Positions 454-58,300 of a stretch of 64,000 nucleotides of DNA are shown piece after piece. Each line of letters begins with the position of its first letter. Positions within the stretch are counted from its first letter, which is position 1. The DNA is from Tubulanus polymorphus (lineage: Eukaryota > Nemertea > Palaeonemertea > Tubulaniformes > Tubulanidae), in NCBI RefSeq assembly GCF_964204645.1, contig NC_134029.1:16882450-16946449 (forward strand). Reading direction: 5' to 3'. A model generated the notes under the pieces. The model had not been told where the DNA came from. It made no database searches and saw only the letters and a list, made by a program, of their open reading frames with translations. Position numbers and translations under genes: made by a program.

Positions 454-13724
<13,271 letters not shown>

Positions 13725-21067: not shown

Positions 21068-21073
21068 CCTATG
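21068..21073 (+). repeat. Target-site duplication CCTATG (left)
   Basis: CCTATG here and at 26565-26570. Other copies of the host repeat have a single TACCTATGCATAT at the same place (for example near 7311), so this is a true duplicated target. Confidence 0.93.
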
Positions 21074-21284
21074 AGTAATAGGGGTAATGGGCTTTCAGGT
21101 CAAAGGTCGAACGGTTGAGCTCATTAAAAAACAAAACATTAAAAGTAATTAAAAACTATAATATATTTTCATAACCGTGTGTATTTTATATTAAAAACTA
21201 AATATTTATTCTAAGATATCAATAATCTAAAAAGCATATTGTATTAAATCAATTGGTCGCGAATTTATTTTTCATTTTCTAGAA

Positions 21285-21505
21285 AAAGTGTGAGTAAAGT
21301 GTGAGTGAAATAATTCATATTTTAACAGATTTCGAGTAAAAATATAAGTAAAATAAATGGATAACTAAAAGAATATAAAAGTGTGAGTAAAGTGTGAGTG
21401 AAATAGTTTATATTTTAAACATATTTCAATATTTATATTTGTATGAGTTAGATTTTTAAACATTAAAGTGTGAGTAAAGTGTGAGTGAAATAATTCATAT
21501 TTAAA
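21285..21505 (+). repeat. Three iteron-like repeats, left arm
   Basis: AAAGTGTGAGTAAAGTGTGA followed by GTGAAATAATTCATATTTTA occurs at about 21285, 21376 and 21464, spaced about 90 bp, just upstream of the first gene. Possibly promoter or replication-protein binding sites; function is inference. Confidence 0.7.
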
Positions 21506-21565
21506 ACATTGAATATTTATATTTATATGTGTTGGATTCATTTTAATAAAAGTTTTGTTATTAAA

Positions 21566-22186
21566 ATGAAGACAGAAGAAGAAGAACCCAACTTTAAAAT
21601 CGAAATCAATGAAACCAATAAATCATTTTCACAGTTTTACATTAAAAATTATATTTCAGCAACAAATTTAGTGTCCGCAAGACATTATAAAATCGATAAT
21701 ATTACTATGATTAATCAAATATTATCAAATGAAACATATTTAATTATTGAACTAGTAGATACTTTTGATAATGGCGTTAAAAATCCTAAATTGTTCAATA
21801 CAGTTTTTAATTTTAAAGGAACTTTAGATGAAAACATAATTAATATTCTTAAAACTCCTTTCAATGAAAGAAATGATGATATAATACTTTCAAAAGATTA
21901 CAATGATTTGATTGACTTAAGAATTGAAAGAAGACAATTATATTATTTCAATTTTGATAATAAACAAATTATCTATAATGAGAATTCATCAAATATTGGA
22001 ATTCAATGTGAATTAGATAATGAAAAATCATTTAAAGATATTGCAGTTCAATGTAATTTAGATGATGAATTTAGAAAATTCAATCCTAATGAAAAAGTGC
22101 ATTGTTATTGCGGAGGTAAATATTTAAAATCACATAAATCAAAGCATTATGAAACAATTAAACATAAAAACTGGTGTGAAGAGTAA
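21566..22186 (+). CDS. Palindrome gene 1, left arm: CxC/HxH finger protein (206 aa)
   Basis: I do not recognise a named family. The start is the ATG of MKTEEEEPNFKIE; the reading frame opens further upstream but without a better start. The N-terminal 140 residues look like a compact Asn/Lys/Ile-rich globular domain. Near residues 145-170 are two similar short motifs, IGIQCELD and IAVQCNLD. The C-terminus has a probable zinc finger: C180-x-C182, then GGKYLKSHKSKH with H190/H194, H200 and C204. Similar CxCGGxY...SKHxxTxxH fingers occur in small proteins of large DNA viruses and Polinton-like elements, which fits but does not prove the element's affiliation. Gene 2 starts 62 bp downstream on the same strand. 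Confidence 0.75.
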   Translation: MKTEEEEPNFKIEINETNKSFSQFYIKNYISATNLVSARHYKIDNITMINQILSNETYLIIELVDTFDNGVKNPKLFNTVFNFKGTLDENIINILKTPFNERNDDIILSKDYNDLIDLRIERRQLYYFNFDNKQIIYNENSSNIGIQCELDNEKSFKDIAVQCNLDDEFRKFNPNEKVHCYCGGKYLKSHKSKHYETIKHKNWCEE

Positions 22187-22248
22187 CAATTCTACATTAT
22201 AATTATTGAATTGAGTTAAAAGATTTAAATATCTAATAGACTGTTAAA

Positions 22249-22695
22249 ATGATAAATTGTTTGCCAGTTGAAATGTTAAATTGTTTGACAGTTGAAATGT
22301 TAAATTGTTTGACAGTTGAAATGTTAAATTGTTTGACAGTTGAAATGTTAAATTGTTTGACAGTTGAAATGATAAATTGTTTGACAGTTGAAATGATAAA
22401 TTGTTTGACAGTTGAAATGATAAATTGTTTGACAGTTGAAATGATAAATTGTTTGACAGTTGAAATGATAAATTGTTTGACAGTTGAAATGATAAATTGT
22501 TTGACAGTTGAAATGATAAATTGTTTGACAGTTGAAATGATAAATTGTTTGACAGTTGAAATGTTAAATTGTTTGACAGTTGAAATGATAAATTGTTTGA
22601 CAGTTGAAATGATAAATTGTTTGACAGTTGAAATGATAAATTGTTTGACAGTTGAAATGATAAATTGTTTGACTGTTGAAATGTTAAATTGTTAT
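22249..22695 (+). repeat. 24-bp minisatellite, left arm
   Basis: Tandem units based on ATGATAAATTGTTTGACAGT plus TGAA, with an A/T variant at position 4. Not a CRISPR array: units abut without spacers. Confidence 0.9.
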
Positions 22696-22704
22696 TCGAT
22701 TTGA
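22249..22704 (+). CDS. Palindrome gene 2, left arm: 8-residue repeat protein (151 aa)
   Basis: Eighteen tandem copies of M-(I/L)-N-C-L-T-V-E plus a truncated last copy ending NCYSI, with no other sequence. The first copy has Pro for Thr. Repeat types run I(P), L4, I8, L1, I4. The period of eight with alternating hydrophobic residues and a cysteine every eighth position suggests a solenoid or beta-type fibre, but this is inference. It could instead be a non-coding 24-bp minisatellite that happens to be open; the ATG start, clean stop and equal length in both arms favour coding only weakly. Confidence 0.5.
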   Translation: MINCLPVEMLNCLTVEMLNCLTVEMLNCLTVEMLNCLTVEMINCLTVEMINCLTVEMINCLTVEMINCLTVEMINCLTVEMINCLTVEMINCLTVEMINCLTVEMLNCLTVEMINCLTVEMINCLTVEMINCLTVEMINCLTVEMLNCYSI

Positions 22705-22773
22705 AACATATAAAAGTTAAATATTTCTAAAATATCAAATATTTATCAATTTAATAATTTTTTTCTTAAATAA

Positions 22774-22992
22774 ATGGATGGTTTCATTCCAACTGGGAAA
22801 AGTGATTTGAAACATTATTTAGTTGCTGGAGGTTTAATATTAGCAGCATTATATTTTTACTATGAGAATATTTCAAAAGATTTGATGAATGAAAATAATA
22901 AATTGAGTAAAAAATTAAAGAAGTTAAATGGAAACAATCACAGAAATAGAAAGAATAAAAAAGTTAATTTAGAAAATGATTTAGAGGATTAA
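22774..22992 (+). CDS. Palindrome gene 3, left arm: small membrane protein (72 aa)
   Basis: Unrecognised family. ATG start, MDGFIPTGKSD, then one hydrophobic segment at residues 14-32 (HYLVAGGLILAALYFYY), followed by a charged Lys/Asn-rich tail with a short coiled-coil-like stretch (ENNKLSKKLKKLN). Probably a single-pass membrane protein with a basic soluble tail. The right-arm copy differs by one residue (Gly to Glu at residue 53). Confidence 0.7.
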   Translation: MDGFIPTGKSDLKHYLVAGGLILAALYFYYENISKDLMNENNKLSKKLKKLNGNNHRNRKNKKVNLENDLED

Positions 22993-23030
22993 AACAGCAT
23001 CTTTCAATTTCATATATTTTGACTATAAAA

Positions 23031-23333
23031 ATGAGTGAAAATATATTAAACTTATTACATCTAATATATAAAAATCAACAGAATATTAAATCAATTATTA
23101 TGCTTACAGGTTTATTTTCATTCTCAGTTTATAGTATAAAACAGTTGTTAGAATTCTATGATTGCTGTAAAATTAGATACACTGAATTAATAGAAAATAT
23201 GAATTATATTTCAGATAGATTGAATAATATTAAATGCTGTGAAATATGCAATAAAAGATATAAAAATTTAAAGAGTTTAAAAACTCATAAATATATTCAT
23301 GAACTTGATGAAAAATTATATGAATCAAAATAA
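23031..23333 (+). CDS. Palindrome gene 4, left arm: membrane-anchored C2H2 finger protein (100 aa)
   Basis: Start chosen at MSENILNLLH. A hydrophobic segment at residues 21-41 is followed by a linker and one classical C2H2 zinc finger, C70-x2-C73-x12-H86-x3-H90, then an acidic end. A single finger joined to a transmembrane helix is an unusual architecture. The gene lies 38 bp after gene 3 and is transcribed in the same direction. The right-arm copy has Lys to Arg within the finger. Confidence 0.72.
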   Translation: MSENILNLLHLIYKNQQNIKSIIMLTGLFSFSVYSIKQLLEFYDCCKIRYTELIENMNYISDRLNNIKCCEICNKRYKNLKSLKTHKYIHELDEKLYESK

Positions 23334-24297
23334 GAAATCGACTGTTAAATTAGCTGAAAATATAAAATATATTAGTTGAAATGTATGAAAATGAGTAAAT
23401 TATATTTATGTTAAAAAAGGAAGGTTGAGGTATCAATGTATCAAATACGTATCAAATACGTATTAATGGTATTAAATACCATTAATACGTATTGATGGTA
23501 TTAAATACGTATTAATGGTATTAAATACATATTATGCTTTATTTCTGAAAATGAAGTAACAGAAGTAATTTATGTTTTAATTCATTCAAGTATGATATTT
23601 TAAATTCTTTACATTTGACTAGGATAATACAAGAGTGATATTAGTTAGTTGGCTTATTCAATAAGAGAAACAATGAAATAATACAAGAGTGATACTAACA
23701 GTTAAAGTTATTGAATTTCTTGTTAAATCTATTTGAATTCTTGTTAACCAATAGCGCGAATAGAAATCAAATAGATTTGAATAAAAAAACAATAATTTAA
23801 ATAAGTTAGTATTAGATAAAGTAACTTATTGTTTTTTTATTCAAATCTATTTGATTTCTATTCGCGCTATTGGTTAACAAGAATTGACTAGAATTCAAAT
23901 AGATTTAACAAGAAATTCAATAACTTTAACTGTTAGTATCACTCTTGTATTATTTCATTGTTTCTCTTATTGAATAAGCCAACTAACTAATATCACTCTT
24001 GTATTATCCTAGTCAAATGTAAAGAATTTAAAATATCATACTTGAATGAATTAAAACATAAATTACTTCTGTTACTTCATTTTCAGAAATAAAGCATAAT
24101 ATGTATTTAATACCATTAATACGTATTTAATACCATCAATACGTATTAATGGTATTTAATACCATTAATACATATTTGATACGTATTTGATACATTGATA
24201 CCTCAACCTTCCTTTTTTAACATAAATATAATTTACTCATTTTCATACATTTCAACTAATATATTTTATATTTTCAGCTAATTTAACAGTCGATTTC
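23334..24297. other. Central non-coding part of the palindrome
   Basis: No gene. It has clustered ATACGTATTAATGGTATTAA-type short palindromic repeats (23445-23528 and mirror 24100-24190), two AATACAAGAGTGATA repeats per arm, and the palindrome centre. Confidence 0.75.
23796..23825. other. 30-bp spacer at palindrome centre
   Basis: The only sequence not mirrored between arms; it joins CAATAA (23790-23795) to TTATTG (23826-23831). It can itself fold, AAGTTA against TAACTT, so single strands could form a capped hairpin. Confidence 0.75.
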
Positions 24298-24600
24298 TTA
24301 TTTTGATTCATATAATTTTTCATCAAGTTCATGAATATATTTATGAGTTTTTAAACTCTTTAAATTTCTATATCTTTTATTGCATATTTCACAGCATTTA
24401 ATATTATTCAATCTATCTGAAATATAATTCATATTTTCTATTAATTCAGTGTATCTAATTTTACAGCAATCATAGAATTCTAACAACTGTTTTATACTAT
24501 AAACTGAGAATGAAAATAAACCTGTAAGCATAATAATTGATTTAATATTCTGTTGATTTTTATATATTAGATGTAATAAGTTTAATATATTTTCACTCAT
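24298..24600 (-). CDS. Palindrome gene 4, right arm (100 aa)
   Basis: Mirror copy of the left-arm gene: hydrophobic segment at residues 21-41 and a C2H2 finger at residues 70-90. One residue differs (Arg for Lys in the finger); all zinc ligands are kept. Confidence 0.72.
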   Translation of the reverse strand: MSENILNLLHLIYKNQQNIKSIIMLTGLFSFSVYSIKQLLEFYDCCKIRYTELIENMNYISDRLNNIKCCEICNKRYRNLKSLKTHKYIHELDEKLYESK

Positions 24601-24638
24601 TTTTATAGTCAAAATATATGAAATTGAAAGATGCTGTT

Positions 24639-24857
24639 TTAATCCTCTAAATCATTTTCTAAATTAACTTTTTTATTCTTTCTATTTCTGTGATTGTTTT
24701 CATTTAACTTCTTTAATTTTTTACTCAATTTATTATTTTCATTCATCAAATCTTTTGAAATATTCTCATAGTAAAAATATAATGCTGCTAATATTAAACC
24801 TCCAGCAACTAAATAATGTTTCAAATCACTTTTCCCAGTTGGAATGAAACCATCCAT
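24639..24857 (-). CDS. Palindrome gene 3, right arm (72 aa)
   Basis: Mirror copy of the small membrane protein with Glu instead of Gly at residue 53. Reading frame and membrane segment are intact. Confidence 0.7.
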   Translation of the reverse strand: MDGFIPTGKSDLKHYLVAGGLILAALYFYYENISKDLMNENNKLSKKLKKLNENNHRNRKNKKVNLENDLED

Positions 24858-24926
24858 TTATTTAAGAAAAAAATTATTAAATTGATAAATATTTGATATT
24901 TTAGAAATATTTAACTTTTATATGTT

Positions 24927-25382
24927 TCAAATCGAATAACAATTTAACATTTCAACAGTCAAACAATTTATCATTTCAACTGTCAAACAATTTATCATTT
25001 CAACTGTCAAACAATTTATCATTTCAACTGTCAAACAATTTATCATTTCAACTGTCAAACAATTTAACATTTCAACTGTCAAACAATTTATCATTTCAAC
25101 TGTCAAACAATTTATCATTTCAACTGTCAAACAATTTATCATTTCAACTGTCAAACAATTTATCATTTCAACTGTCAAACAATTTATCATTTCAACTGTC
25201 AAACAATTTATCATTTCAACTGTCAAACAATTTATCATTTCAACTGTCAAACAATTTATCATTTCAACTGTCAAACAATTTAACATTTCAACTGTCAAAC
25301 AATTTAACATTTCAACTGTCAAACAATTTAACATTTCAACTGTCAAACAATTTAACATTTCAACTGTCAAACAATTTATCAT
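24927..25382 (-). CDS. Palindrome gene 2, right arm: 8-residue repeat protein (151 aa)
   Basis: Mirror copy with exactly the same number and order of repeat types; the first repeat has Thr rather than Pro. Same doubts about coding status as for the left copy. Confidence 0.5.
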   Translation of the reverse strand: MINCLTVEMLNCLTVEMLNCLTVEMLNCLTVEMLNCLTVEMINCLTVEMINCLTVEMINCLTVEMINCLTVEMINCLTVEMINCLTVEMINCLTVEMINCLTVEMLNCLTVEMINCLTVEMINCLTVEMINCLTVEMINCLTVEMLNCYSI

Positions 25383-25444
25383 TTTAACAGTCTATTAGAT
25401 ATTTAAATCTTTTAACTCAATTCAATAATTATAATGTAGAATAG

Positions 25445-26065
25445 TTACTCTTTACACCAGTTTTTATGTTTAATTGTTTCATAATGCTTTGATTTATGTG
25501 ATTTTAAATATTTACCTCCGCAATAACAATGCACTTTTTCATTAGGATTGAATTTTCTAAATTCATCATCTAAATTACATTGAACTGCAATATCTTTAAA
25601 TGATTTTTCATTATCTAATTCACATTGAATACCAATATTTGATGAATTCTCATTATAGATAATTTGTTTATTATCAAAATTGAAATAATATAATTGTCTT
25701 CTTTCAATTCTTAAGTCAATCAAATCATTGTAATCTTTTGAAAGTATTATATCATCATTTCTTTCATTGAAAGGAGTTTTAAGAATATTAATTATGTTTT
25801 CATCTAAAGTTCCTTTAAAATTAAAAACTGTATTGAACAATTTAGGATTTTTAACGCCATTATCAAAAGTATCTACTAGTTCAATAATTAAATATGTTTC
25901 ATTTGATAATATTTGATTAATCATAGTAATATTATCGATTTTATAATGTCTTGCGGACACTAAATTTGTTGCTGAAATATAATTTTTAATGTAAAACTGT
26001 GAAAATGATTTATTGGTTTCATTGATTTCGATTTTAAAGTTGGGTTCTTCTTCTTCTGTCTTCAT
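25445..26065 (-). CDS. Palindrome gene 1, right arm: CxC/HxH finger protein (206 aa)
   Basis: Mirror copy with Lys for Glu one residue from the C-terminus. The C-terminal finger ligands are unchanged. Confidence 0.75.
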   Translation of the reverse strand: MKTEEEEPNFKIEINETNKSFSQFYIKNYISATNLVSARHYKIDNITMINQILSNETYLIIELVDTFDNGVKNPKLFNTVFNFKGTLDENIINILKTPFNERNDDIILSKDYNDLIDLRIERRQLYYFNFDNKQIIYNENSSNIGIQCELDNEKSFKDIAVQCNLDDEFRKFNPNEKVHCYCGGKYLKSHKSKHYETIKHKNWCKE

Positions 26066-26135
26066 TTTAATTACAAAACTTTTATTAAAATGAATCCAAC
26101 ACATATAAATATAAATATTCAATGTTTTAAATATG

Positions 26136-26350
26136 AATTATTTCACTCACACTTTACTCACACTTTAATGTTTAAAAATCTAACTCATACAAATATAAAT
26201 ATTGAAATATGTTTAAAATATAAACTATTTCACTCACACTTTACTCACACTTTTATATTCTTTTAGTTATCCATTTATTTTACTTATATTTTTACTCGAA
26301 ATCTGTTAAAATATGAATTATTTCACTCACACTTTACTCACACTTTTTCT
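26136..26350 (-). repeat. Three iteron-like repeats, right arm
   Basis: Mirror copies of the GTGTGAGTAAAGTGTGAGTG repeats. The 7-bp insertion of this arm lies next to the outermost copy (about 26351-26358). Confidence 0.7.
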
Positions 26351-26564
26351 AGCGAGTAGAAAATGAAAAATAAATTCGCGACCAATTGATTTAATACAAT
26401 ATGCTTTTTAGATTATTGATATCTTAGAATAAATATTTAGTTTTTAATATAAAATACACACGGTTATGAAAATATATTATAGTTTTTAATTACTTTTAAT
26501 GTTTTGTTTTTTAATGAGCTCGACCGTTCGACCTTTGGCCTGAAATCCCATTACCCCTATTACT

Positions 26565-26570
26565 CCTATG
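26565..26570 (+). repeat. Target-site duplication CCTATG (right)
   Basis: Direct repeat of 21068-21073, followed by CATATTTTGT, which is how uninterrupted copies of the host repeat continue. Confidence 0.93.
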
Positions 26571-27583
26571 CATATTTTGTAACCACAATCAATTGGAAAG
26601 TTGTAGCTCATGACATCATCTATGATTGTTGTGAGTTTTAAGGACATTAGTTTTTCTATATGGTCACCAGGGGGCGTTGAATAGTAGAATAACTTAGTAT
26701 TTCCTTATTATATTGGTACCTAGGCATACTTTGTTACCATGATCAATTGCAAAGTTGTAGTTCATGACATGTTCTATGATTGTGGTGAGGTTCGAGGTCA
26801 TTGGGTTTTGAATATGGTCACCAGGGGGCGTTGAATAGTAGAATGACTTAGTATTTCCATATTAAATTGGTAACGAGGCATATTTTGTTATCACAATCAA
26901 TTACAAAATCGTAGCTGCTGACATGTTCTATGATTGTGGTGAGTTTCAAGGTCGTTGGTTTTTGTAAATGGTCACCAGGGGGCGTTGAATATTGAAATTG
27001 TTAGATTGTTGAGCATTTGAAACCATTTCCCAAGTGGGCATGGTGTCGCTGGACCCCTAGTTACTCATACCAGTTTCAGTTCGAATAGCCAGTCATAACG
27101 CACAAACACTGGCGCACCGACAAATTCGACCTAACGCACTCTACCGTCAAACGATTGACGACTTTTATTCGGCGCTATAAAGTTGTAGTTGTTTGCAGTA
27201 GCCAAATTTAAGTTGACGAACTATTATTCAAATCGCTTTGGAGATTCTCGAAAATACTGTCTTTGAGTCGATTGGCTATTTCGTGCAGTTGTGACGTCAC
27301 AGATTGAGTTGCTAAGTAGCTGTCGTCGTAGTTTCTACCGTCCTTACACCGGTCGTTGGGCCACAACTCGCAAAAATGGTCGTCGCTTTTCATATACGAA
27401 GATATATGACAATGATTCCTGGTCAAGTTATCGCAATTTGTACGTTGGTGCGAGTAAAGCGTTTTAATTAGGAGGCGGTGAAGCTTAGAAGGTTTGTGCC
27501 GCAAATATGACTTATGAAATATGAAAAATAGACTTATACGATCTAATGAGATATTCAAAAGCGGTACATTTTTGAGTTTTATT

Positions 27584-46300: not shown

Positions 46301-49300
46301 GCTGATTTCTGCGGCTAAGCCAATCATAGAGGTGTCTTTGCTTTCTGATTGGCTTTTCAAAACCAATATTTTTGCGATCAGATATTCGCAAAAAATCTCA
46401 TATAAATTTTATCGAGGCCCTTTTTCAAAATTCAGCTTCGTAGGATTTGGAGAATGGATAATGCTTTAATGAATGATTTGTATGACTACATGCTTAGTTG
46501 CACAGTCAAAGGGCCTTAGTTCCGGAAACCATGTCATTTAAATTCGCTCCATTTGTGTAGTAAAACTTTTAAAAAACTTCCATCGTGTTTTATATCTGTC
46601 GTACCTTGTAAGACTGGTCCTCGAGTTTTGGTCCTAGATAAGTTGGATTATCACTATCTTCAGGAAGCCATGACTGAAATGGACTACACCCATACAGAAA
46701 TACATTCTTCTTACGAGAATGACCGTGATAGTCGCAGTACACCTAAAAAACAAATCAGTAAAATAATGCAACAAAAATACTAGAAAATAGGCAAGAATTA
46801 TCATCCATAGTTGCATCTAGTCGATGAAGACTTTTAACGAACAGAAACAGGAAAATTTTATTTCGATGGTAATAAGCAATCAAAAGAATTGAGGCTTATA
46901 TGGACAAATGGTAAAATTTCAGTAGAAGTTACCCTAGCAATTAAGGTAACTTACGAGCGGTGCTTTTCCAGTCACAGTCATATGTTGCATTAATCCTTTA
47001 GTATGATAAATAGTAGGATGTAGTGTGGGACATGGCTGTAGCCAACGTCGGTTCAAATCTTCTGCTGTCAATGACGTCCGATGACTAATTAACAAACACA
47101 AATCATGATTAGATTGAAAGCATTGAAAACCTATTATGCATCTTGTCTAAAGATTCACAATTGGCTAATCATTGATGAAACACTTTTTCCGTGATATAAG
47201 ATCTAAAATGATATAAAATACAACACTCAAATTAAAAAGGGTCTGAAATGTTTCTTTGAGCTAATATCTATTTGATGTTTAGGTATTGCTGAAAATGACA
47301 ATAAGGATATAGTCAAACCATTGAATGAATATTAGCTCAAGAACATTTCAGTCTCTTCTTATTCTTTGTTGTAAGTCTTTTATTTCCATATCATCATGTT
47401 CTGTATTAAACAACTGACTCGTGGAGCAGAGTTTAATGAAAATAGCCATCATAATTTAGAACTATTGAAGCAACTGGAAATTGCGAATTTGTTCTAATAC
47501 AGTTTAACTCAACTTCTATAAGCAGTGATATTTACTTTCCATTGATGACACCATCTGGGTTTAACATCGGTACTATCTTAAACACATACATATCCCGTAG
47601 ACTTTGTGCGGATGGACGATCACTTAATAAATGCTGAATTGTACCTAAACATCAAAAACACAAATAACTTAATACCCGGCATTTATCAAATTATGCAAGA
47701 GATTTAATGGGTTAATTAAATACATAGGGATAATTGATAGCAGTGAAAATGAGAACCCTTTTTAATAATTAGACGCTGGCTTTCTAATTCAAAAAAATGT
47801 TTGGTGATGAAGAGACGTACAAATATGATCGTGTTTACAAAACAAATGGACCCCAAAAGATCCATTTATAATATCATTTTAACAAAATACAATCATCTCC
47901 CCCAGAATTGAAGTTTTTCAAAAGTCTTAAATTGGATAATAATATCTGTATTCAAATTATCTATTATCCAAATCTCAAGGAACAAATGGCTAAGTGGCCA
48001 GATTTAGGCAGTCGGCATATCTGATGTTGGTTCGAAGTTTACACAGAGTGTATGATGCTTCCTAGTTGCTTATTGTGTATTGCATAAGACATAGTGTACG
48101 ATGTTCCTGTACTTTGAGAAAGGACAGACAGAATCATGGCGGGGTGTTGGGACCTATCATACAGTGTTGTAGTATAATAAAGCCATACCCATTATCATTG
48201 AAAGTGGGCATAGGTTAGCCTTGAACCCGAGGCCTTGAAACTCATCACAATGCAATTCTCCATGACCGCCAGCAACGATTGTGTTACTAAGACGTGTCAA
48301 CCTACACGCTCTTGTGACTGGCAGCAACACCAGTTGCAACGAGTCGCACAGTTGATGAGCGTCCTTTTTAAAAACTAGGGGTCCAGGGAAACCATGCCCA
48401 CTTGGGAAGTGGTTTCAAATGCTCAACAATCTAACGATTTTAATATTCAATGCCCCCAGGTGACCATATACAAAAACCAATGACCTTGAAACTCACCACA
48501 ATCATAGAACATGTTATGAACTTCAACTTTGCAATTGATCATGGTAACAAAATATACCTAGGTACCAATATAGTAAGGAAATACGGCAGAAGTTATTCGA
48601 CTATTCAACGCCCCCTGGTGACCATATAGAATATCCAATGTCCTAAAAACTCACCACAATCATAGCCGATGTCATGAGCTACAACTTGGCAATCGATCAT
48701 GGTAACAAAATATGCCTAGGTACAAATATAATATAGAAACACTAAGTTATTGTATTAATCAATGCCCCCTGGTGGCCATATACAAAAACCAATGACCTTA
48801 AAACTCACCAAAATCATATAACACTTTATGAGCTACAACTTTCCAATTGACAGTGTTAACAAAATATGCTTAGGTATCAATATAATGTGGAAAACTTTTT
48901 CCCACCTCCGAATGAGTACTGATGACACCAAGATGGCCGCCAATTGTGTCGTTATTAACTGATCAAAAATACCTGTCTCAGGTGTAAAACATCCCTCTCC
49001 AAAGAATACCCATCATAAATTGCAATGAGAAAAGGCAAACCAGTAGGACGCTACAGGACTCGGAATTCGGGCCAAAATTAACATTTTTGGGCATTAAAAG
49101 GTCATAGAACAGCCATCTTGAGTCCAATCGACCCAATTTTTCTTAAGCTGATGGACCCTTGGGGGATTCAAATATATTCAAAAGATCAAGGTAAGCGATC
49201 CAAGCGTCTTCAAAATTTCCCTTGAAAACTTCAAAATTGTATAAAAAGTGCTGATTTTGGAAACAACAATGGCTTCCATTGAATTTTCACATTTTATCAA

Positions 49301-55300: not shown

Positions 55301-58300
55301 GGACTGGTTGCCTGTCGAATTCTGAGTCTAGACTGGTTGCCTATCTAAACACACATGTATGTTTTTAACCGTATGCCTCTACTCTCCACTTTCAAACAAC
55401 CATGCCTTCTAGAGTGCGCTAATTGATGGTTCCCACAGTTACATATATCAAAAATTTGCAGGTTTTTCCCAAGTATTCATGGGTTATTTTCAATTTTCCC
55501 AAATGAAAATTAACAGATACTATCATGCTACATTCAACATTTTAGTGGTGACTGGTTGATAAAGGTGATTCTCAAGGGAAATCCCTGGACGTATTGGCCC
55601 CATTCCGTGCGGTTGCCCCACAGCGTGGGATTTATGCAGCAAACATGGCCACCAAACATTTGAAGTTTCAATGATAGAAATTGTACATGAATTTCAATAC
55701 AATTTGAGCTGTTAGGATTTCAAGGCACAATATAACTAGATGATGTGATATAGCGATGTTAATAAAGATAATGCTGCAGTGAAGCTCGTCACGAACTGTC
55801 CTGATTGAGTGTACAGTGGTTAAAAACATACACATTTGCGTAGTTACATAACTATTTGCAGTGAATTGCAGATGAAACATGAAGCCTTAACGGTCATTTA
55901 CAACTAGGGGTCCAGGTACACCATGCCCACTTGGGAAGTGGTTTCAGATGCTCAACAATCTAAAAATTTCAATATTCAACGCCCCATCCAATGACCTTGA
56001 AAAAATCCAATGACCTTGAAACTCACTACAATCATAAAACATGTCAGCAGCTACAATTTTGTAATTGATTGTGGTAACAAAATATGCCTAGATACCAATA
56101 TGTATGGAAATTTTAAGTTACTCTACTATTCAACACACCCTGGTGACCATATGCGAAGCCCAATGACCTTAAATCTCATCATAATCACAGAACATGTCAT
56201 GAGCTACAATTTTGCAATTGATCATGGTAACAAAATATGCCTAGGTACCAATATAATAAGGAAATACTAATTTATTCTACTATTCAACGCCCCCTAGTGA
56301 CCATAGAGAATAACTAATGTCCTTGAAACTCACCACAACAATAGAGCATGTCATGAGCTACAACCTTCCAATTGATTGTGGTAACAAAATATGCATAGGT
56401 ACAAAAATAACATAGAAATACTAAGTTATTGCATTGTTCAATGCCTCCAGGTGTTATTGCATTGTTCAATGCCTCCTGGTGGCCATATGCAAAAACCAAT
56501 GACCTTGAAACTCACCACCATCATAGACCATGAGCTACAACTTCCCAGTTGATTGTGGCAACAAAATATGCTTGAGTATCAATATAATGTGGAAAACTTT
56601 CTTCCACCTACGAATGAGTACTGATATCACCAAGATGGCAGCCAATTGCATCATAATTGCTTGATCGTATAACCTGTCTTGGGTATAAAAGAAGATCATT
56701 TTCTAAAGAACACCCATCACAAATTGCAATGAAAAATGGCAAACCATTAGGAAGCTACAGGACTCCGAATTCAGGCCACAATTGACACTTTTGGGCACAA
56801 AAAAGGTCAAAGGACAGCCATCTTTAATCCGATCGACCCAATTTTTCTCTTTGATCAAGGTAATTGAAAAAAGATTCTTCGAGAAAAGATTTCCCTCGAA
56901 TAACTTTGAAAATGTGTAAAAAGTGCTGATTTTGGCAAACAACAATGGCTGCCAGTCGGCCATCTTGAATCTGACAATCTTGAATCTGACAGGGCCAGTT
57001 TTGGGCTGAAGATATGTCTAGGGTAGATACATGTATAAACCAATTATCAAGACATTACCTTAAGCGTCTTCAAAACTTCCCAAAATAACTGGATTCCGTC
57101 TACGGACGGATGGACGAACGCTGGGACTAAAGTCCCAAGTGGGCTAAAAACATTATAGCAATCTCAATTGAAAGATAATAATGATATACAACTTGAGTTA
57201 AAATTATGGCCATTTCTAAAATCATATCACTAAATTGTAGTCAGTGCAGAACGTTTGGTTTTGGAACAATAATGAGGGGTGGTAGGTAGTCATGATTTAA
57301 CACATGTTACTTATATGTTGTTGAAAATCTTGCAAGAATGGCGCAACATTGAAACTGGCAATAAATTCCAAATATCATACATGATTTTTTGTACATATTC
57401 ATAATTCATCTGCTATAAAGTTCCGATAAACAATTGCATGTTTACGACGATGTTTGACCGCAATGGTTGCCTGGGAAGCAATTTTTCCACCATCTCGTTG
57501 GCAGTGCACATGCCCCCCCATTCTGTTTGTAAACACAATCCACACGTGTACACTACACTCGCTGTATCAGCATTCGTGGCTCTCAAAAACAAAACAGCGT
57601 CAAATAGTCTACTGGAACCCACCCAGGGTTCATTGTCTCAAGCTCAGGTGAAATTCAAGCCATTTCAAGCTAGACTTTTACCATTTTCAAGCTGTTTTTT
57701 CAGGCACGTTGGAAGCAATTTTCGATAGTCACTGCCAATTTGCCTATTTTTAACAGGTTCTTGACGAGGGTCATATAAAAATGTTAAAAAAGAGGTAAAA
57801 TTTCGATTCATTTTACAGTGGAACCTCATTGATAGGACTCTGTTAGAGATGAAAACCGTTTATCACAATGATTTCCAACATTTGCTAGCTTAGATATTTA
57901 TATCAATTAATATTTGGATAAGGCCATCCCAAATTAATTGTCTGTTTGTTTGGAATAAGTTGGTAGGTAGGTACAATCGTTTTTTTTGCAAAATTTAAGG
58001 ACAAAGAAAAACAACAAATTTATCACTACTTTTAGTGGAAACAATATCCCAAATCTGCTTCGTGCAAGGGAAATTTGTATTTCAAGAATAATTTAAGATT
58101 TCAAGAATAAATTCTAAAACTAACTTTGTCCTGAGCGTCATCTCTGTGTTCAAAATGAAACAGTAGATTGAATATATGCGCGCTATAACATTACCAGCTA
58201 TAATATAGTGACTAAGAATGAATGGCAGCTTATTGGAACACTGCCAGTTTCCTGGAAAACTTTAACTAGGCCATAGTCGAGCAATGTTTTCACACGATGC

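Follow-up and report, generated by a model that had tools for sequence, protein, structure and literature searches.

The stretch analysed here, a window of 64,000 nucleotides from the nemertean Tubulanus polymorphus (C5:16882450-16946449), carries a 5.5-kb element that is, over its whole length, an inverted repeat with the ends of a Polinton/Maverick transposon and with the same three small genes (P1, P3 and P4) in each arm. We conclude that this element is probably one copy of a multicopy, non-autonomous and palindromic lineage of Polinton/Maverick satellites, which would be mobilised in trans by the Polintons resident in the same genome. On the comparison of independently inserted copies, the palindrome is inherited stably within the lineage and is not an accident at the window locus. 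Resident Polintons with matching ends are the most likely source, in trans, of the integrase and the protein-primed PolB, as the shared ends and the length of the target-site duplication (TSD) suggest, and in this respect the sequence-only reading, which had described a mobile element served by an integrase in trans, was probably right. Coordinates without a contig or locus name are window positions, and the genome searched was the 267.8 Mb assembly of 77 contigs.

The window element and its copies in the genome

The exact limits of the element are 21074-26564, with the ends AGTAATAGGGG...CCCCTATTACT. Its left terminus begins AGTAATAGGGGTAATGGG and the right end is the complement of this sequence, so that AG...CT terminal inverted repeats are present. 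In a self-comparison, ungapped arms of 2484 nt (21264-23747 and 23884-26367) were 99% complementary, and the outer ungapped arms of 212 nt (21070-21281 and 26357-26568) were 98% complementary. A global self-alignment placed the axis at about 23809, between a left arm with the AGTAATAGGGGTAATGGGCTTTC end (21074-23808, plus strand) and a right arm (23810-26564, minus strand), and the two arms differed by 13 mismatches in 2733 pairs (0.48%) and by 5 small indels. The 6-bp TSD CCTATG flanks the element on both sides (21068-21073 and 26565-26570). The whole-element inverted repeat with Polinton-type ends and a 6-bp TSD, as first read from the letters, is thereby borne out.

The insertion site lies in an array of a 154-bp satellite. 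When the empty site was reconstructed from the flanks and one copy of the TSD, it matched uninterrupted 154-bp monomers at other places in the window; 14 of the 18 high-scoring segment pairs (HSPs) span the junction, and the eight HSPs displayed are ungapped, at 81-87%. The satellite on both flanks, the CCTATG duplication and the match of the empty site together indicate a genuine insertion. Short arrays of the 154-bp satellite occur in the window at 7285-7707, 26565-26991, 48447-48893 and 55998-56430, and the element sits in one of them.

A genome search with the whole element returned at least 451 matches (33 of 4385 candidates scored), a figure that is not a copy count because each arm matches in both orientations. 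The terminus had 369+378 exact matches in the genome versus 0 for the reversed control, and at least 162 matches were obtained with P1 and at least 150 with P4. Twenty stretches, hand-picked from the top of the genome-search list, were taken for comparison, and the L numbers below denote these and other stretches of the genome. Identical 6-bp TSDs flanked 12 of the 15 elements read, L014, L020 and L024 being without one, and two further elements had the duplications TGCGGA (L026-L028) and TGCGGC (L035-L036). In total, 14 of 17 elements carry a 6-bp TSD, with L020 still scored as a miss although the right end read for it probably belongs elsewhere, and all 14 TSDs are different; therefore, these are independent insertions. 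Further palindromic copies with different 6-bp TSDs, which the sequence-only reading had proposed to look for, are accordingly present.

The palindromic form is also common in the family. Inverted arms of ~1.65 kb or more were found in 11 of the 15 elements, and five of these 11 self-align essentially end to end. Among the 150 P1 copies listed of the at least 162 matches (150 of 675 candidates scored), there are 29 adjacent pairs within 10 kb, of which 29 face inward, 0 outward and 0 lie on the same strand; the pairs on C2 and C14 are probably one locus that was assembled twice. In a more widely spaced P1 pair of 19.7 kb (C5:11848115/11867206), the 1.5 kb of the interior that was read consists of the P1 end, P3 and part of P4, with no Polinton end there. 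At C5:8641000-8667000 (L006-L008), a ~13.3-kb tandem duplication (~99% identical) includes a one-armed copy of the element.

Resident Polintons and their two types of terminus

The sequence-only reading had also proposed to look for a full-size relative with the same terminus, and one was found: a type-A element of 17.4 kb (C2:11594832-11612208, L029-L030), with ends 93% identical to those of the window element over ~185 bp and with the TSD GATAAC. The outer left arm of the window element (~185 bp, 21074-21258, plus strand) is 92-94% identical to the ends of this element and of the full-size type-A L031/L032. The open reading frames (ORFs) of L029-L030 include one with an rve match above the cut-off, which also has a chromo match that falls just short of it, and another with a PolB match; P1, P3 and P4 were all absent from it (tblastn, E<=0.01).

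A Polinton of type B is nested in the palindromic copy L026-L028. Its ends start with AGTAATTAGAAAAG, its TSD is AAAGCG, and its genes are an rve integrase, an A32-type ATPase and a 1687-aa PolB-bearing ORF (L027:2804-7867, C1:14076503-14081566). Residues 661-1107 of this ORF, scanned alone, match PolB (PF03175) at 71.2 bits; PF03175 was not listed in the Pfam scans of the whole ORF, and no PDB sequence matched it at E<=0.01. Residues 1200-1482 gave an intein-like match (PF14890, E 9e-7, below the cut-off) and a LAGLIDADG_3 match above the cut-off; homing-endonuclease insertions in the PolB of Polintons have already been published (available part of PMC11071308). The type-B end has 40 matching places in the genome, which include 13 pairs 15.8-17.7 kb apart, and PolB is listed in 12 of these 13.

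The cassette was also found between type-B ends. The element at C12:8079984-8086237, with ends 6.25 kb apart and the TSD TGCGGC, carries P1 (73%), P3 (97.5% over 40 aa) and P4 (64.5%) in the ~4.5 of its 6.25 kb that were read, and over its outer 227 bp it has 98.7% identity to the end of the type-B Polinton. As judged from these matches, the same cassette of genes occurs with two kinds of terminus, and for each of them there is a resident Polinton with a matching end.

The palindrome had been proposed to derive from half of a larger element carrying these genes, and the candidate full-size intervals do not bear this out. They number 24, of which 13 are of type B and 11 of type A; the latter are pairs of hairpin-ended termini at a spacing of 13-23 kb, taken from the first 100 places listed, two of them sharing an end, and one was read whole, in addition to the nested case. 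Listed P1 and P4 copies are absent from 23 of the 24 intervals, as read from lists that are lower bounds for P1 and P4 and with P3 not searched genome-wide. The 24th, C1:14063817-14085649 (L026-L028), holds listed P1 and P4 copies and was rejected as a parent Polinton, being the palindromic copy with the nested type-B Polinton, which has its own TSD, AAAGCG. A P1 copy at C4:14836629 and a PolB 13 kb away were likewise rejected as one element, as a Polinton-like terminus with 7 mismatches to type B lies between them (L033:2387). The interval on C1 is also a case in which a satellite with one type of end served as landing site for a Polinton of another type.

The outer ~380-410 bp of the full-size elements of type A are imperfect palindromes in their own right, with a self-complementarity of 77-80% by BLAST (L029:133-542, L030:8133-8509 and L031:109-514), and therefore could form hairpins. 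Shorter versions of these terminal palindromes occur in the satellites L019, L022, L025 and L026.

Inheritance of the axis, similarity of the arms and rival explanations

The axis or loop of the window copy (approximate limits 23796-23822) is shared with L014, in opposite orientation, and the two loci are 95.6% identical over 331 bp across the axis. A second, longer centre is common to L010, L013, L016 and L018, with 86-96% identity in 5 of the 6 pairs, and no axis-spanning HSP was obtained for L010-L013. Since independent insertions have common axes, the palindrome was not rebuilt at each site; and because the independently inserted L014 shares its axis, the palindrome of the window copy did not form at the window locus. 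A one-off half-copy as the origin of the palindrome, which had been suggested from the window alone, finds no support in this result.

Within a copy, the two arms are generally closer to each other than to other copies. P1 diverges by 0-1.0% between the arms of one copy versus a mean of 2.2-3.7% to other copies, and, once matches covering <90% were dropped, the partner arm was the nearest P1 in 10 of the 11 two-armed loci and the nearest P3-P4 in 6 of 6. At P1, 21 private variants are common to both arms of a copy versus 28 arm-arm differences, and at P3-P4 these numbers are 17 and 13; the private variants present in both arms indicate that changes have been copied from arm to arm. Hence, the nearest-partner result and the common axes together argue that the palindrome is inherited and that its arms are homogenised.

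The route of homogenisation is plausibly fold-back replication. The window element would bring the Polinton-type ends and P1, P3 and P4 once per arm, and the helper Polinton would provide the integrase and PolB. In the mobile phase, the displaced single strand would pair with itself to give one hairpin of 2.7 kb, open only at the terminus; copying round the loop of this hairpin, together with mismatch correction in the stem, would restore the full palindrome with near-identical arms, and the two arms would then offer two integration-competent ends.

For the homogenisation step, the main rival is gene conversion between the arms in the chromosome instead of in the mobile phase, which we consider unlikely, yet the least unlikely of the alternatives. 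Gene conversion homogenises the arms of large sex-chromosome palindromes, and with it a special mode of replication is unnecessary. The arm-arm differences, which had been predicted to be neutral, also look partly constrained: 28 of 43 are nonsynonymous, versus a neutral expectation of 0.83 (p=0.007, transition bias uncorrected), their ratio of nonsynonymous to synonymous differences (pN/pS) is 0.40, and they do not differ from the between-copy differences (p=0.21). The failure of this prediction is compatible with chromosomal gene conversion or with a mobile-phase homogenisation that is imperfect. The arms have nevertheless diverged in some copies, to a BLAST identity over the aligned parts (gaps included) of 95.7% in L019 and 94.8% in L018 and to a difference of 2.0% at P3-P4 in L026-28, so that conversion, if there is any, is not keeping pace everywhere.

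A second alternative, which we regard as improbable, is that each palindrome is a sterile, defective derivative, i.e., a fresh head-to-head dimer of the end of a larger element, generated by template switching, then inserted, and without a lineage of its own. Recent dimers would have near-identical arms, and snap-back defective genomes are known in adeno-associated virus (AAV; available part of PMC8235507). Against this explanation stand the axes common to independently inserted copies and the distribution of the listed P1 and P4 over the full-size intervals (from incomplete lists, as above), and also the constraint on the three genes. The nonsynonymous to synonymous rate ratio (dN/dS) is 0.33 for P1 (20 loci), 0.15 for P3 (20 loci) and 0.31 for P4 (21 loci), which points to purifying selection, and the reading frame is intact in 20 of 31 P1, 22 of 27 P3 and 21 of 28 P4 copies. 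In these counts, matches with <85% of the gene were dropped (6 for P1, 5 for P3 and 0 for P4) and the tandem duplicates L006 and L007 were entered as two loci.

It is very unlikely that these are Foldback (FB) or Mutator-type elements with coincidentally Polinton-like ends: FB elements, whose TSD is about 9 bp, share with the window element the long inverted repeats enclosing short tandem repeats, but differ in coding content, and the 6-bp TSD of 14 of the 17 elements and the ends 92-98.7% identical to those of Polintons contradict this assignment. Inverted-duplication artefacts do occur in long-read data, but an artefact of assembly or of fold-back reads is hardly credible here, given the satellite on both flanks, the TSD and the empty-site match, the 13 sites and 5 indels at which the arms differ, and the 29 inward-facing P1 pairs found genome-wide among the 150 listed copies.

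Several observations weigh against the reading as a palindromic lineage mobilised by Polintons. Transposition, an extrachromosomal form and expression were not observed. Paired P1 copies account for 58 of the 150 listed, and 92 are unpaired in that list; 4 of the 15 elements (L009, L020, L021 and L023) are not long palindromes, and no P1 is present in the 1.36 kb read from the right arm of the cassette element with type-B ends. PolB is listed in 1 of the 11 type-A intervals, where it belongs to the nested type-B Polinton, in a list that is a lower bound, with 91 of 1342 candidates scored. Across the axis, neither of the two axis types matches the other, and L012 resembles neither of them; the centre of L011, a locus outside the axis comparison, gave a poor alignment (62 mismatches in 1960 pairs). 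Therefore, the centre must have changed at least once. The nearest P1 to that of L018 is in L017 and not in the partner arm. Finally, the non-neutral arm-arm differences speak against the simple model of arms that start out identical when inserted and afterwards decay without constraint. With these points taken into account, a palindromic satellite lineage mobilised by resident Polintons is still the explanation that we prefer.

Genes of the cassette and relation to known systems

Of the four genes per arm that had been read in the window, three are conserved, and the second is a 24-bp minisatellite. P1 (21566-22186, plus strand; right-arm copy 25445-26065, minus strand) has 206 aa from its ATG and a Cys/His-rich C-terminus, which is strongly divergent in L028, and belongs to no recognised family. 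P3 (22774-22992, plus; 24639-24857, minus) has 72 aa, with a hydrophobic segment, judged by eye, and a basic tail. P4 (23031-23333, plus; 24298-24600, minus) has 100 aa, with a hydrophobic segment, also judged by eye, and one C2H2-like finger below the Pfam cut-off. The minisatellite, with 19 units in each arm (22239-22693, plus; 24938-25392, minus), forms one open array in the window copy and was rejected as a gene, since stops break it in 14 of the 20 other loci examined. It is unsplit in L006, L007, L011, L015, L016 and L023, and in L024 it is split in one arm only. At L021:3354-5877 the array is enlarged to ~100 units, in an element of 4.3 kb with the matching TSD TGCGTC. Three subterminal repeats containing AAAGTGTGAGTAAAGTGTGAGTG (repeat family D5) lie at 21279-21509 on the plus strand, and their right-arm counterpart (repeat family D6) lies at 26122-26352 on the minus strand.

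In the Pfam scan of the four ORFs named by the sequence-only reading, neither an rve integrase nor a protein-primed PolB was found, and no capsid, ATPase or protease family appeared above the cut-off; the longest ORF listed in the element has 225 aa. The weak Pfam, PHROG and PDB matches of these ORFs (E 0.0008-0.72, none in Pfam above the cut-off) were judged to be due to chance, except for the C2H2-like finger of P4. P1, in a 225-aa reading from TTG, had no match at E<=1 in a large protein set, and its predicted structure was unusable (mean predicted local distance difference test score, pLDDT, 34.9). A profile search with P4 gave one match, P0001, with 69% identity across 87% of the query and on a contig of 1030 bp; this 95-aa homologue of P4 is the sole outside relative found. 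The profile search with P3 gave zero candidates, and scans of viral contigs with P1, the P4 profile and the P1 profile gave no matches.

With the Polintons/Mavericks (polintoviruses, adintoviruses) the window element shares the AG...CT ends, the 6-bp TSD and the terminal inverted repeats, and the ends of the family have 92-98.7% identity with the ends of resident Polintons. Unlike them, it is 5.5 kb long instead of about 16-19 kb, its inverted repeat is the entire element, and it carries three other genes in place of a recognised integrase, PolB, ATPase or capsid gene. Like non-autonomous DNA transposons of the type of miniature inverted-repeat transposable elements, it has only the ends in cis and is presumably mobilised in trans, but it is fully palindromic, with conserved genes under purifying selection, and no larger source element was found in the lower-bound lists. 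The snap-back genomes of AAV require helper functions. They are the nearest named analogy, being likewise head-to-head palindromic DNA genomes (available part of PMC8235507). The satellite differs from them in being a heritable chromosomal family with common axes, and in that its genes were not found in the presumed helpers. Virophages and satellite viruses also keep genes of their own and depend on a larger virus-like entity; unlike virophages, the window element has no recognised capsid or replication gene, and its presumed helper is a Polinton and not a giant virus. No palindromic Polinton satellite is described among the literature matches listed, a survey from which subscription journals and Repbase were excluded and which does not prove absence, and none is mentioned in passages of PMC6431247, PMC6035795 and PMC2871265.

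In the same assembly, TTAGG arrays are listed only at the interstitial positions C3:4313853-4313927 and C9:818422-818591, and none is listed at contig ends.

We tentatively put forward a more specific picture, which is possible rather than probable: that this eukaryotic genome harbours self-complementary Polinton satellites, i.e., hyperparasites that would replicate as a single-arm hairpin, integrate as a full palindrome, retain three genes that are theirs alone and acquire their termini from the resident Polinton that happens to be active. If true, the Polinton and virus world would have an extra layer, a gene-bearing satellite living off virus-like transposons, and the whole-element palindrome would be informative on how its helpers replicate. 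The divergence between arms versus that between copies would then provide a handle on fold-back replication that is accessible from sequence, and the occurrence of one cassette with two terminus types would constitute a natural test of helper specificity.

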